NCBI RefSeq assembly: GCF_025361915.1
Contig: NZ_JANYJC010000083.1
Coordinates: 1-47,202 of the forward strand
DNA from: Chamaesiphon sp. GL140_3_metabinner_50
GTDB lineage: Bacteria > Cyanobacteriota > Cyanobacteriia > Cyanobacteriales > Chamaesiphonaceae
Reading direction: 5' to 3'
DNA length: 47,202 bases
This document shows, one piece after another, positions 27,047-47,064 of the stretch. Every line of letters begins with the position of its first letter. Position 1 is the first letter of the stretch. The notes below the pieces were generated by a model. It saw only the letters and a program-made list of their open reading frames with translations. It ran no database searches and was not told the DNA's origin. The position numbers were made by a program, and so were the translations under genes.

Positions 27047-27130
27047 TTACCCCACCCCAGCCCTCCCCTTATAAAGGGGAGGGAGCCGGAGTTAGCTCCC
27101 CCCTTTATAAGGGGGGGTTGGGGGGGGTAA
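27047..27130. repeat. 84-bp MITE-like double-palindrome
   Basis: TTACCCC..CCCTCCCCTTATAAAGGGGAGGGAGC ... GCTCCCCCCTTTATAAGGGGGGG..GGGGTAA. Confidence 0.85.
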
Positions 27131-41172: not shown

Positions 41173-43848
41173 ATGTGGATCGATCGAAAAATACGACAAT
41201 TGCTGCGCCCTAAACCGATTGCCATTGTTGAGGCTTGCTCGATCGGAGTAGTTTCGGCTTTAGCTGCGGTAGGTTTGCGACAATCGGTGGCGTGGTTGGA
41301 GGCGTGGCGGTTAGATCTTGCGGGTGCTTTCCCTGCCTGGATTGTATTGCCACTCATCGGCATTGTCGGCGGGTATTTAAGTGGTTTTTTAGTCGAGCGA
41401 TTTGCACCAGAAGCGGCGGGGAGTGGGATTCCGCAGGTGAAGGCGGCTTTAGGATACGTGCCGATCGCGTTGGATTTGCGGGTGGCGGTGGTGAAGTGGC
41501 TCAGTACCAGTCTCTCTCTGGGTTCTGGCTTTGCTTTGGGGCGACAGGGGCCGACGGTGCAAATTGGTGCCGCCTTAGCCGCACAATTGAGCCGCTGGAC
41601 GGATACATCGCCAACTTATCAACGTCAATTAATTGCTGCTGGAGCGGCGGCGGGGCTGGCGGCGAGTTTTAATGCGCCGATCGCGGGGGTATTATTTGCG
41701 ATCGAGGAATTGTTGCAAGATGTCTCGGATCTGACGCTGGGGACGGCGATTATTGCAGCGGTGGTAGGGGGTGTCATTGCGCGCACGTTGGGCGGACGCG
41801 GGATGGTGCCAGATCTGAGCCAGTTGCCGATTCATTTTGCCCTCGCGGAGATTCCCTTATTTATCGGATTGGGCATCCTGGCGGGATTGGTGGGGGTATG
41901 TTGCAATCGCAGTCTGTTGGCGAGTTTGAAGTTTTACCGCCAGCGGTTTCGCGATCGATCTTTAGCAATTAAAATTGCGGTGGCTGGGGGGGTAACTGGC
42001 ATTCTGGCGTTACTTTCGCCCTATGCTTTACTAGGCACTCAAAATTTACAAGACTTTCTAATCGTCGGGGATATTAACTGGCAAATTGCTGGGGAAATTC
42101 TACTCATTCAATTCGTACTGTGTTGGGTGGGGTTTGGGGCGACGGCACCGGGCGGATTGTTTTCGCCGAGTTTAGTGTTGGGTGCGGCTTTGGGCGATGC
42201 GATCGCCACGGGATTGCAAAGTTGTTATCAAGCAGGAATCTGCCCGACAAATCTGGTGCTGAGTTCGCCGACAGTATACGCACTGACAGGGATGAGTGCG
42301 GTATTTAGTGCCATTACCCATCGTCCCATGTTCGCGATCGCGATCGTGTGGGAAATGACGACTCAGTTCGATTTAATCTTACCGCTGACGATCGGTTCTG
42401 TATCGGCATATCTGGTTGCCGAACAACTTTTTCCCGGATCGATTTATCAACATTTACTTACCAGTAGAGGGATCGAGATCGATCGACCAGATTTAGCCCA
42501 ACGTCGCTGGGTGGGCTTAACTGCTGCCGATCTAATGCAGCGATCCGTCGAAACTCTCACTTGTGACACGACTATTTCCGCCGCCGTTACTGCTTTTGCC
42601 AATTCTTCCCATCGCGGATTTCCGATCGTCGATGATGGTAAATTAGTCGGCATTCTCACTCAAAGCGATCTCTCTAACTCTCAACAGCAAGATCGTCAAA
42701 CATCAATCTCGACACTGATGACACAGCGCGTCATCGTCGTCAGTCCTCAAGATCCGCTCACCTCAGTATTGCATTTGCTCGATCGCCATCAGATCGGGCG
42801 ATTGCCAGTCGTCGAAGGTAACAAACTCGTCGGGATTATTACCCGCGCCGATATCATTCGCGTCGAAGCCGATTTATTAAATAGTACCGTCAGCCCCTTT
42901 AAAACTCGCCCGGAACCCTCCTATTTAGTCTATCGGACTCAATCGCCAGCCACGGGACGCGGACGGCTGCTCGTGCCCCTGAGCAACCCGCAGACAGCCG
43001 ATATTTTGCTCCGACTAGCTGCGGCGATCGCCCTTGAATTTAACTACGAATTAGAGTGTCTACACGCGATCGTCATTCCGCCAGCGAGTCACCCCGCCGA
43101 GACTGAAGTAGATCTCACCGCTAGCCGTCAATTATGCGATCGAGCCACCGCTTTAGGCAAAGTTTTAGGCGTTTCCGTCCATACCCAAGTGCGCGTCACT
43201 CATCATGTTGCTACAACTATTTTAGAGGTAATTAACGATCGACATATCGACTTATTATGCATGGGTTGGCAGGGCAAAACTTCTACCCCCGCTCGGATTT
43301 TTGGCAATACGATCGATACCGCCATTCGCCAAGCTCAGTGCGATTTAATGCTAATTAAATTGAGCGATAAATTACAGTTAAATTTACCCGTAAATGAACT
43401 ACTCGCGCCGAACTCTTCGCTAGATGCCTTAATGCGCCTAACTCATCTCAATCGGTGGTCGATCCCGATTTCAGGTGGGCCAAATTCCGAGTATGCTTTA
43501 CAATTATTGCCCGCGCTAACTTCCCTCAGTCGCGCACCAGAAATTCATCTGTGTCAAGTGTTTGCGCCGACTCAATCCCCGCCAGATCTGCATAATTTAC
43601 AGATGGCGGCAGATTTTATCTGCCAAAATTTAGACACAATGCCAACGATTACGCCCTTATATGCCGATACGATCGCGACTGCGGCAATCGATTTTGCGAC
43701 ATCTAAACAATGCGATGCCATTATTTTAGGGGCGAGTCGCGAAAGCCTACTTCAACAAACCGTTCGAGGTAATATTCCCGATGCGATCGCGCGGGGTGCT
43801 AATTGCACGGTAATTGTCGTCAGAAAAGCCGATCGCGATTCGATCTAG
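41173..43848 (+). CDS. ClC-type chloride channel/transporter fused to CBS pair and USP-like domains
   Basis: GSGIPQVK, GRQGPTVQIGAALAAQ, GGLFSPSLVLGAALG; two CBS motifs; USP-like C-terminus. Confidence 0.94.
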   Translation: MWIDRKIRQLLRPKPIAIVEACSIGVVSALAAVGLRQSVAWLEAWRLDLAGAFPAWIVLPLIGIVGGYLSGFLVERFAPEAAGSGIPQVKAALGYVPIALDLRVAVVKWLSTSLSLGSGFALGRQGPTVQIGAALAAQLSRWTDTSPTYQRQLIAAGAAAGLAASFNAPIAGVLFAIEELLQDVSDLTLGTAIIAAVVGGVIARTLGGRGMVPDLSQLPIHFALAEIPLFIGLGILAGLVGVCCNRSLLASLKFYRQRFRDRSLAIKIAVAGGVTGILALLSPYALLGTQNLQDFLIVGDINWQIAGEILLIQFVLCWVGFGATAPGGLFSPSLVLGAALGDAIATGLQSCYQAGICPTNLVLSSPTVYALTGMSAVFSAITHRPMFAIAIVWEMTTQFDLILPLTIGSVSAYLVAEQLFPGSIYQHLLTSRGIEIDRPDLAQRRWVGLTAADLMQRSVETLTCDTTISAAVTAFANSSHRGFPIVDDGKLVGILTQSDLSNSQQQDRQTSISTLMTQRVIVVSPQDPLTSVLHLLDRHQIGRLPVVEGNKLVGIITRADIIRVEADLLNSTVSPFKTRPEPSYLVYRTQSPATGRGRLLVPLSNPQTADILLRLAAAIALEFNYELECLHAIVIPPASHPAETEVDLTASRQLCDRATALGKVLGVSVHTQVRVTHHVATTILEVINDRHIDLLCMGWQGKTSTPARIFGNTIDTAIRQAQCDLMLIKLSDKLQLNLPVNELLAPNSSLDALMRLTHLNRWSIPISGGPNSEYALQLLPALTSLSRAPEIHLCQVFAPTQSPPDLHNLQMAADFICQNLDTMPTITPLYADTIATAAIDFATSKQCDAIILGASRESLLQQTVRGNIPDAIARGANCTVIVVRKADRDSI

Positions 43849-43908: not shown

Positions 43909-44628
43909 CTATTCATCTGCATTAGTTTCGACAGCAGCCTTAGCTGTTAATTGAGCGATTGCCTGTCGTTCGCACCATCCTGGGGATCGATCTGGATGCT
44001 TGCTTCTGATTTGAGACAGCAGCCATTGAGCTTGGGCGCGATCGCCACCGCATAATGATATTAATTCTGGACTTAGGGTTAATGGTTGAGGGGGCACTGG
44101 TTTCGGTTTGCTCGGTGCTGGAGAGCTAGCTTGACTCGTGTCTACCGATTGTTGTTGTTTGTTAAGGGTTGCTTCTGATTCTAGTAACATTGTGTATCTG
44201 CTGGTACCGAGTATTCCTTGCCATAAGTAATAAAATATAATCCCAGCCAGTGGCGCAGCCGTGGGCGGAAACTGTCCAGAGAAGATTTGATAAAGCTTAC
44301 TCAGTAAATAGTAACCAAACATCAATATGGCGCAGATGTTACTATTCTTGCGGATGCCATAACCCAGCCCGAATATTAAGATGAGATCTAAGATACCCCA
44401 ACTGCTGTCGGGTACGCCGCGAGTTATTTGTACCCACCAGATGAGGGTTGAAAAACCGCCGACTACCATCGTGGCTTGAAATGCACTATTGATTTGCGTG
44501 CGTGCGGCGGCGATATCTTTTTTGATACCGAGGAGAATGGCATCAGAAACCTGACTATCGTCTAGCAGGGTTGGGGGTGTCATAAGATCGATAAATAAGA
44601 GTGCATCTCTAACATTCACAAAAATCAC
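43909..44628 (-). CDS. Hypothetical membrane protein
   Basis: 239 aa, several TM segments and a Pro-rich linker. Confidence 0.65.
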   Translation of the reverse strand: MIFVNVRDALLFIDLMTPPTLLDDSQVSDAILLGIKKDIAAARTQINSAFQATMVVGGFSTLIWWVQITRGVPDSSWGILDLILIFGLGYGIRKNSNICAILMFGYYLLSKLYQIFSGQFPPTAAPLAGIIFYYLWQGILGTSRYTMLLESEATLNKQQQSVDTSQASSPAPSKPKPVPPQPLTLSPELISLCGGDRAQAQWLLSQIRSKHPDRSPGWCERQAIAQLTAKAAVETNADE

Positions 44629-44683: not shown

Positions 44684-45892
44684 TTATGGAGAGTGACGAT
44701 CGACATTAAATGCTTGTGCTAAAACTGTCAGCTCTTTGGCTCGGCGCAGATAAGGCTCTAGTCGCTCGGCTTCCCACCCTGTAAGTAATTCCATTGCTTC
44801 GATCGTCAATCCTCTCATTATCATTTCCACGCACCATGTCGCTTGAGTTTGGGCGATTGTCGGCGGTTCGCCTGTCGGGGTAATAATTTCGCTAGTTAAT
44901 TGTTGCCATTGTCTTTCTAATTCTACCGCTGTTAATGCGGCACCATCTTCATTAATAAATAAAGCATGATGAGCATCTTTACGACTTTTTAGCCATTGTG
45001 TCAGCGGATTTTTAAGATAGGAGCCGTACCTTTTGCCCATAATCCATTGATTTACAGGTACCTGTCGATCGCTACTATGAGTAATTTGTAATAACTGAAA
45101 ATCGCTACTACTCAAATGATTCGATCGAGTTAAAGTAATTAGCTCTCTAGTACTCAATCCCGCGCCAAATAATACGTATGCAATTGCATAAATTTGAAGG
45201 TTCTGCTTTTTGGCTGTTTGGAGAATCCGCTCCACGATCGGTGCGGGTAAATCGAGAGCGATCTCGTGTCGATCGGCTGGTATACTGGCATTTTCAGCCT
45301 CTGCACCTGCGATGAATAGGGCAACCACTCGATCTAAAAAATCTGCTCGATCGCGCCACAAGCCATGAAATTCACTAGTTAGTTCGATCGTCGCATATCC
45401 GAATAACAATGTATGTAATAAACCCGTTAATTGTTCGATCGGGAATTGTAAATCTGCTTGCGATTCGCCAATATTAGTTTTTAAATACTTCGCGACACGA
45501 CGATTGGCGCGATCGAAACTACGTCCCAATCCTTGACGGTTTTCGAGCGAATATTGTCCCGATTCGCCAACTAAAGAACGAATCACGGCGGGGGTTTGTT
45601 CTAGTGCTTGCAGGCAGGTATTGGCATACGTTCTAAGCATTTGCGCCAGACTGCTGGCTGGTGGCAATTCTGTCGCTAAACTCTGCCCTAATTGCCCAAA
45701 TACTTTGGCATCTTCAATGACGGCGAGTAGCAACCCATGTTTATTCCCAAATTGACGAAATAATGTGACTTCGTTTACTTGTGCTAGTTCGGCAATTTGC
45801 TTGGTGGTAGTCTCACTTACCCCTTGGCTGGCAAATAATTCGATCGCTGCTTGGATAATTTTTTGACGGCTAAGGTTGCGGGAAGATGGCAT
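44684..45892 (-). CDS. TetR/AcrR-family regulator with C-terminal degenerate tyrosine-recombinase-like domain
   Basis: N-term KIIQAAIELFASQGVSETTTKQIAELAQVNEVTLFRQFGNKHGLL; C-term AIAYVLFGAGLSTRELITLTR...MIMRGLTIEAMELLTGWEAERLEPYLRRA. Confidence 0.85.
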   Translation of the reverse strand: MPSSRNLSRQKIIQAAIELFASQGVSETTTKQIAELAQVNEVTLFRQFGNKHGLLLAVIEDAKVFGQLGQSLATELPPASSLAQMLRTYANTCLQALEQTPAVIRSLVGESGQYSLENRQGLGRSFDRANRRVAKYLKTNIGESQADLQFPIEQLTGLLHTLLFGYATIELTSEFHGLWRDRADFLDRVVALFIAGAEAENASIPADRHEIALDLPAPIVERILQTAKKQNLQIYAIAYVLFGAGLSTRELITLTRSNHLSSSDFQLLQITHSSDRQVPVNQWIMGKRYGSYLKNPLTQWLKSRKDAHHALFINEDGAALTAVELERQWQQLTSEIITPTGEPPTIAQTQATWCVEMIMRGLTIEAMELLTGWEAERLEPYLRRAKELTVLAQAFNVDRHSP

Positions 45893-45960
45893 GGAATATG
45901 GGTTTGGTTAGCTGACTGGATCGCGATTTTTCGCTGGAGCGGTTGCACTAACGACATTTA

Positions 45961-45977
45961 TGCAAGTGATACTTGCA
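45961..45977. promoter_or_regulatory. Putative operator 1 (TGCAAGT-GAT-ACTTGCA)
   Basis: Perfect 7-3-7 dyad in the TetR/desaturase intergenic region. Confidence 0.7.
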
Positions 45978-46001
45978 TAACTTCAAAAGAGTTGTTAAGA
46001 T
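45973..46001 (+). promoter_or_regulatory. Putative sigma70-type promoter TTGCAT-N17-TAAGAT
   Basis: -35 at 45973-45978, -10 at 45996-46001, 17-nt spacer. Confidence 0.4.
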
Positions 46002-46006
46002 ATAAA

Positions 46007-46023
46007 TGCAAGCGTTACTTGCA
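46007..46023. promoter_or_regulatory. Putative operator 2 (TGCAAGC-GTT-ACTTGCA)
   Basis: 7-3-7 dyad with one mismatch, 46 bp centre-to-centre from operator 1. Confidence 0.65.
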
Positions 46024-46200
46024 ACACCTCTTTCCACTATACCTAGATGCGGAACCAGTGTCCAAGAATTTAGGGGTTAGGGATTAGGGGCTAAGTATGA
46101 GGGAAATCTAACTAAATGATTAAAATTTAGTACCTACAACCCAACCACCACAGACGAAAACTCACAGACTAAAACCTAAAACCTAACTAATCAACTATTT

Positions 46201-47064
46201 ATGACTGCTAATTCGATCGCACGCGGGCAAAGCCCAACCGAGAAAGGCTCACAAGAACGAGATACCACACCATTAAGTTGGGTAAATGTCATCTTTTTTG
46301 GTTCGTTTCACCTCGTTGCTTTAACGGCTCCGTGGTACTTTAATTGGTCGGCACTAGGAGCGGCAATCGTGCTGCATTGGCTATTTGGTTCGCTCGGAAT
46401 TTGCTTAGGATTCCATCGCTTGCTAACACATCGCAGTTTTAGCGTACCCAAACCCTTAGAATATGTATTTGCAACACTTGGCGCATTAGCACTCCAAGGC
46501 GGGCCAATTTTCTGGGTAGCTGGACACCGACAGCACCATTTATATACCGAAGATTGGGATAAAGATCCCTACTCTGCAAAACGAGGATTCTGGTGGAGTC
46601 ACATGTTATGGATCTTCTACCCAAAATCGAATTTCTTTAACTTCGATGAATATAAGCGCAATGCTCCAGATTTAGCGAAAGATGCTTACTACACTTGGCT
46701 GGACAAGTATTTTCTGTTTTTGCAAATTCCAGTCGGATTACTATTATATGCGATCGGCGGTTGGTCGTTTGTGATTTATGGTGTAGCTGTCCGCGCTGTG
46801 GTTTTATGGCACAGTACTTGGTTGATTAATTCTGCCAGCCATATTACTGGCTATCGCAGCCATGAGTCAGATGACAATTCTCGCAATCTCTGGTGGGCAG
46901 CACTGCTAACTTACGGTGAAGGCTGGCACAACAACCACCATGCATATCCCAATGTCGCTAAAGGCGGCTGGCAGTGGTGGGAAATCGATATGACTTGGTG
47001 GGCGATTCAATTATTACAGCAGCTTGGTTTGGCTAAACGAGTAATTTTACCCCCGACAAATTAA
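46201..47064 (+). CDS. Acyl-lipid/acyl-CoA delta-9-type fatty acid desaturase
   Basis: LGFHRLLTHRSF, GHRQHHLYTEDWDKDPYS, GEGWHNNHHAYP histidine boxes. Confidence 0.95.
   Translation: MTANSIARGQSPTEKGSQERDTTPLSWVNVIFFGSFHLVALTAPWYFNWSALGAAIVLHWLFGSLGICLGFHRLLTHRSFSVPKPLEYVFATLGALALQGGPIFWVAGHRQHHLYTEDWDKDPYSAKRGFWWSHMLWIFYPKSNFFNFDEYKRNAPDLAKDAYYTWLDKYFLFLQIPVGLLLYAIGGWSFVIYGVAVRAVVLWHSTWLINSASHITGYRSHESDDNSRNLWWAALLTYGEGWHNNHHAYPNVAKGGWQWWEIDMTWWAIQLLQQLGLAKRVILPPTN

Follow-up and report, generated by a model that had tools for sequence, protein, structure and literature searches.

We have found in the window, by which we mean the whole analysed stretch of 47,202 nucleotides from a Chamaesiphon genome, a gene that joins a TetR-type regulator to a tyrosine-recombinase (Xer) catalytic domain without an active site. 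We consider that its product is probably an autoregulated, DesT-like regulator with essentially one target, the divergently transcribed desaturase gene desF, into which the dead Xer domain has been exapted. The gene and the parts of its product are as follows, in window coordinates.

44684..45892, minus strand: TetR/dead-Xer fusion gene, an open reading frame of 402 aa with homologues
45719..45859, minus strand: TetR_N helix-turn-helix, residues 12-58 (Pfam PF00440; 31/60 columns conserved at 90% or more)
45293..45712, minus strand: TetR C-terminal helical part, residues 61-200, putative ligand or dimer domain (Foldseek)
44696..45259, minus strand: tyrosine-recombinase (Xer) catalytic-domain fold without active site, residues 212-399 (PF00589, hhalign, Foldseek)
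45152..45154, minus strand: S247, position of the catalytic Arg-I, lost (profile alignment)
45017..45046, minus strand: family-specific insertion WIMGKRYGSY, residues 283-292 (gap in the hhalign and XerA alignments)
44843..44854, minus strand: AQTQ, residues 347-350, position of the HxxR box, lost (profile alignment)
44750..44752, minus strand: Y381, position of the nucleophilic Tyr (Y in 85/96 homologues)

The first-pass annotation, made from the letters of the sequence, had read the N-terminal half as a canonical TetR helix-turn-helix followed by a ligand-domain-like region, and both parts were recovered. Pfam assigns TetR_N to residues 12-58 with 50.1 bits against a cut-off of 24 (E 2.4e-13), and the helical part behind it, which has helices at 63-197 in the full-length model, matches FadR, DesT, KstR and EthR in Foldseek; its sole Pfam match, TetR_C_33, is weak. 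The fusion thus has the marks of the TetR family, namely the TetR_N helix-turn-helix, a helical C-terminal domain with a putative dimer function, and palindromes near its own gene. The full-length model matches both recombinases and TetR regulators; its pTM of 0.54 is too low to settle how the domains are arranged. Columns conserved at 90% or more amount to 36/140 in the TetR C-terminal part, 0/14 in the linker and 57/188 in the C-domain; the dead Xer domain equals the TetR part in conservation and is under constraint.

The match of the single sequence to Phage_integrase (PF00589, residues 220-375) is modest, with 29.0 bits against a cut-off of 27.1 and E 1.1e-6 in Pfam, and therefore the identity of the C-domain was checked in four further ways. 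PF00589 is matched individually by 65 of 70 diverse homologous C-domains, with a best E of 2e-12, and a profile of the C-domain finds XerA (4a8e) in the PDB with E 4e-7. Alignment by hhalign of the C-domain family to real Xers, represented by 12 recombinases of the same phylum from other genomes, covers 161 columns with 98.5% and E 3.6e-15. The AlphaFold2 model of the C-domain has a pLDDT of 95.4 and a pTM of 0.91, and Foldseek relates it to XerA as the best match (TM 0.75), XerH-difH, Tn1549 Int, Cre, lambda Int and HP1 Int, all with probability 1.00. Both profile and fold hence place the C-domain among tyrosine-recombinase catalytic domains, as had been proposed with a XerC/D-type catalytic fold, and a C-terminus without likeness to recombinases, the outcome that had been named as refuting the proposal, is excluded by the sequence profiles and the predicted fold. 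The fusion also differs from the compared Xers: Pfam finds no SAM-like N-terminal core-binding domain, which is present in the compared Xer L224 and whose place is occupied by the TetR part, and the insertion WIMGKRYGSY of about 10 residues is conserved in 96 homologues and missing from real Xers.

Catalytic residues were mapped by profile alignment and counted in the 96 distinct homologues. At the Arg-I position the window protein has S247 (S in 77 and R in 4 homologues); the hairpin Lys of GKG is deleted, as seen from an alignment gap, and the hairpin is shortened; the HxxR His position has A347 (E in 59, A in 12, with His outside the six commonest residues) and the Arg-II position Q350 (Q in 72, R in 22). 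W373 stands at the His/Trp position (W in 63, C in 18), and with Y381 it is all that the window protein keeps of an active tyrosine recombinase. The earlier observation that the first catalytic Arg and the HxxR box are lost while a Tyr is kept is therefore correct, as S247, A347/Q350 and Y381 show, and the loss extends further, to the Lys. The reading that the protein is a working recombinase, controlled by its TetR part and acting on DNA, could appeal to the Tyr and the His/Trp position, which are mostly kept in the family, and to the 3 of 96 members that have both Arg, but Arg-I, Lys, His and Arg-II are all missing from the window protein, as is the core-binding domain, and no mobile-element gene recurs around the fusion loci, so that we find this reading scarcely credible. 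Those three members (L013, L068 and L099), the only ones of the 96 with both Arg positions, have the Tyr also, and may either preserve an ancestral condition or have partly reverted. In two real Xers of the same class, L223 and L224, the HxxR box reads HQFRHSFATLL; the Gln beside its His is common to them and to the fusion, where it is invariant (Q348), and because of this shared residue these Xers may stand close to the source of the dead Xer domain.

The gene is present in a single copy in its own genome and occurs in seven of the eight sampled genomes of the same genus, in which the named relatives are Chamaesiphon. A search of 84,980 species gave 107 relatives, of which the best 80 are all cyanobacterial, and in an even draw of the phylum the fusion was found in 41 of 386 genomes (E <= 5e-51), corresponding to about 10% of the sampled cyanobacterial species. 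In all 41 genomes it lies inside an open frame of at least 399 codons, and the next matches in the 386 genomes have E 7e-9 or weaker and are mostly ordinary recombinases of 290-340 aa; judging from this gap and these open frames, neither half was therefore seen alone as an orthologue. That the gene is an annotation or assembly artefact or a decaying pseudogene could be imagined for a draft genome in 394 contigs, but the same one-frame fusion is found conserved and intact, at 45-83% identity, in complete as well as draft genomes of many families, and the chance of this explanation is negligible. The nearest unfused TetRs (L027 and L028, 29-33% identity) have RND/HlyD-type genes beside them instead of a desaturase gene. 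L147 (390 aa), which had been suspected of being another fusion in the same genome, was rejected as an ordinary phage-type integrase.

Neither phage records, among which the fusion has no match, nor viral contigs searched with two short peptide patterns of the TetR region yielded a relative, and phage origin or carriage was rejected on these negatives. Spread by plasmids was also rejected, with a single full-length plasmid copy found, which is accompanied by its desaturase. This pair (L149, 10001-11245) lies on pP742403, a 29-kb mobilizable plasmid of Gloeothece citriformis PCC 7424, and adjoins a gene for the N-domain of orange carotenoid protein and an ssl1498-type light-harvesting-like gene, a gene set that suggests a light or membrane stress cassette. 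The homologue on pP742403 is annotated in its record as a TetR/AcrR regulator. In the window, the fusion is followed immediately downstream, on its own strand, by a gene (43909-44628) for a small membrane protein without known family whose C-terminus contains CGGDRAQAQWLLSQIRSKHPDRSPGWCERQAIAQL; this neighbour is not conserved at other fusion loci. An 891-aa protein combining a ClC-type chloride channel, CBS and two universal-stress-protein domains is encoded at 41173-43848.

On the other side of the fusion gene, the window carries the following elements.

45960..45978, no strand: operator II, fusion-proximal and predicted, a perfect palindrome ATGCAAGT-GAT-ACTTGCAT
45992..45997, minus strand: TARCAA element (here TAACAA), exactly 13 bp upstream of operator II
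46006..46024, no strand: operator I, desaturase-proximal and predicted, a palindrome with 2 mismatches, 46 bp from operator II
46036..46041, minus strand: possible -10 (TATAGT) of the fusion gene, a consensus match, with a conserved TAYAGT left of operator I
46201..47064, plus strand: divergent delta-9 fatty acid desaturase of the DesF group (PF00487; 72/72 readable loci; tree)

It had been suggested that other TetR-integrase fusions and their neighbourhoods be searched for, and the search has disclosed a fusion family across cyanobacteria with a constant desaturase neighbour. A divergent fatty acid desaturase gene adjoins the fusion in 72 of 74 loci, the other two having only a few hundred bases upstream of the fusion gene and hence no readable neighbour. 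These desaturases form a clade (100/100) that excludes other delta-9 paralogues, including in the window's own genome a second delta-9 desaturase 54% identical to the neighbour. The DesF clade comprises 37 rows (100/100) with hemN-linked copies inside it. Among eight DesF orthologues without an adjacent fusion, five lie directly downstream of hemN, which in three of the five was recognised from shared C-terminal sequence only; seven of the eight were placed in the tree and group together (94/86). From the tree and the hemN synteny, two forms of desF can therefore be distinguished, one belonging to a low-oxygen heme/chlorophyll cluster and the other to a pair with the fusion, and both are present in three genomes (G004, G007 and G044). 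The second copy of G007 (L206) is downstream of an open reading frame unlike hemN and has no palindromes. By synteny and tree position, the neighbour is assigned to the DesF group, i.e., the low-oxygen delta-9 desaturases. Distances among the fusions and among the desaturases correlate with r 0.82, a value from which relatedness has not been removed.

Two 19-bp palindromes of the form ATGCAAGT-N3-ACTTGCAT are present in 72/72 fusion-desaturase intergenic regions vs 0/3600 shuffled ones, and the 7-mer ATGCAAG is likewise found in 72/72. The palindromes have a start-to-start distance of 46 bp in 26 loci and 47 bp in 32 (range 43-54), and at 46-47 bp the stretch between them is 27-28 bp. No such palindrome occurs at any of the eight DesF orthologues without an adjacent fusion; because the sites are present with the fusion and absent without it, the fusion protein is predicted to bind them. 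In the window's genome the two palindromes are the only sites at 2 mismatches or fewer (control pattern 0). Most other genomes have the same pair and few or no scattered 2-mismatch sites, the most being in G027; such extra sites are mostly single and near the control counts, and a wider regulon was rejected. The palindromes could also be RNA hairpins in a 5' leader rather than DNA operators, since they can form stems of 7-8 bp with a 3-nt loop, but the arms are conserved by sequence and vary without a compensatory pattern, and the fourth position is an unpaired C-A in 74 of 146 sites, which argues for DNA recognition and makes the hairpin very improbable. Elsewhere in the window (27063-27116), two perfect 8-3-8 inverted repeats lie 35 bp apart (CTCCCCTTATAAAGGGGAG and CCCCCCTTTATAAGGGGGG).

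Concerning promoters, a sigma-70 scan gave 1 match vs 0.8 expected. In 62 of 67 distinct loci TARCAA keeps a distance of exactly 13 bp to the fusion-proximal palindrome, while the gap between it and operator I differs from locus to locus; it could not be placed as a -10 or a -35 at consistent spacing, and the promoters could not be assigned cleanly. The string TTAACA, as we take it, resembles the XerD half of E. coli dif, and this likeness of six AT-rich bases was not used as evidence.

On the regulation of desF, we propose that TetR-type dimers would occupy both palindromic operators in the promoter region that the two genes share, and would most likely keep the fusion gene and desF repressed until a signal releases them. 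Repression rather than activation is inferred because the protein belongs to the TetR family; the promoters show one weak consensus match. The releasing signal would probably be a lipid or acyl-ACP state. Acyl-CoA is believed to be scarce in cyanobacteria, and therefore the acyl-CoA signal of the DesT type may not apply. The C-domain is a Xer catalytic domain without its chemistry and with TetR in place of the N-terminal core-binding domain, kept by selection as part of the proposed regulator. Its likeliest job would be to fix the geometry of the complex by keeping the two dimers joined on their operators, 46-47 bp apart, and it might also grip the backbone of the inter-operator DNA near TARCAA; against this reading, the spacing does not correspond to an integral number of helical turns, and its variable part lies between operator I and TARCAA.

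Two other functions of the dead Xer domain have to be weighed. It could be a sensor whose emptied active-site cleft binds a small molecule and signals to the TetR part. Mostly neutral or acidic residues stand where the catalytic ones were cationic, and invariant or near-invariant residues have newly appeared at or near the active site and elsewhere (R276, W283, N295-P296-L297, W329, Q348, T352, W353 and D398); the average net charge is +1.7 vs +5 to +12 in real Xers, and the segment aligned with the major-groove helix of Xers is acidic (mean -2.2). The TetR part, however, already has the usual ligand domain, and we hold the sensor to be possible but on the doubtful side. The same low charge and acidic segment may speak against DNA binding by the C-domain itself, although the cyanobacterial Xers L223 and L224 are likewise slightly acidic at this segment. 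This bears on a further reading, rather unlikely in our judgement, that the domain is a second DNA-binding unit clamping DNA beside operator II at TARCAA. It accords with the fixed 13 bp between TARCAA and operator II, set against the variable distance to operator I, and with several basic residues conserved in the C-domain (K228, K229, R276, K302, R304, K305, R360 and R384), but TARCAA may be a promoter element. XerH also offers a precedent, because its catalytic domain mainly holds the backbone and its N-terminal domain, replaced here by TetR, reads most bases (PMC5241119); base reading would then fall to TetR, with TARCAA as the adjoining grip. Bridging of the two dimers, by a fold whose members form swapped tetramers as XerH does (PMC5241119), stands slightly ahead of sensing and clamping, with no strong preference. 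An extension of bridging, quite unlikely as we see it, is that two TetR dimers are held by their dead Xer domains in an assembly resembling a synapse, which spans the 27-28 bp separating the operators, a length close to the 28 bp of dif. If this is true, the DNA assembly of a recombinase has been kept and its chemistry dropped, and the repressor behaves like a frozen recombination complex.

DesT of Pseudomonas aeruginosa, FabR and MadR are TetR-family regulators of desaturase genes that sense acyl-CoA, of which the DesT type binds the saturated and the unsaturated form to opposite effect. To our knowledge, none of them has a recombinase domain. The fusion resembles them in its TetR fold, whose TetR part is near DesT, FadR and KstR, and in its predicted local control of a desaturase, and differs by the added 190-aa dead Xer domain, the two fixed tandem operators and the cyanobacterial host. 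DesT controls desaturase genes through acyl-CoA (PMC8872791). With XerA, XerC/D and XerH the fusion shares the catalytic-domain fold (profile match 4a8e; Foldseek 5hxy and 5jjv), and unlike them it has no SAM-like domain, most catalytic residues lost, the insertion of about 10 residues, a low charge and the fusion to TetR. In Synechococcus 7002, desF, a low-oxygen delta-9 desaturase gene, belongs to the chlAII-ho2-hemN-desF operon controlled by ChlR (PMC4500134); the desaturase group is the same and five of the eight fusion-free desF copies have the corresponding position just downstream of hemN, whereas fusion-linked desF lies outside the hemN cluster, with palindromes, and ChlR is an unrelated activator.

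Searches of the open literature turned up no account of a TetR fused to a recombinase or of an inactive recombinase acting as a regulator, and none was seen in a review of recruited mobile-element genes. New here are the invariant divergent desF neighbour and the conserved palindrome pair in 72/72 readable loci. The idea in the first-pass annotation that a recombinase fold was repurposed as a regulatory module agrees with the conserved fusion, the 57/188 conserved C-domain columns, the invariant desaturase neighbour and the palindromes: it appears that a fold made for rearranging DNA now serves within a gene regulator. Since the target is defined and the predicted operators are defined, the proposal is testable at once. 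For annotators, this is a reason against labelling these fusions as plain TetR regulators or integrases. For cyanobacteria, it means that a recombinase catalytic domain has entered a one-component regulator and become fixed in many families, and this regulator is possibly the missing controller of DesF-type membrane desaturation where desF lies outside the ChlR low-oxygen operon.
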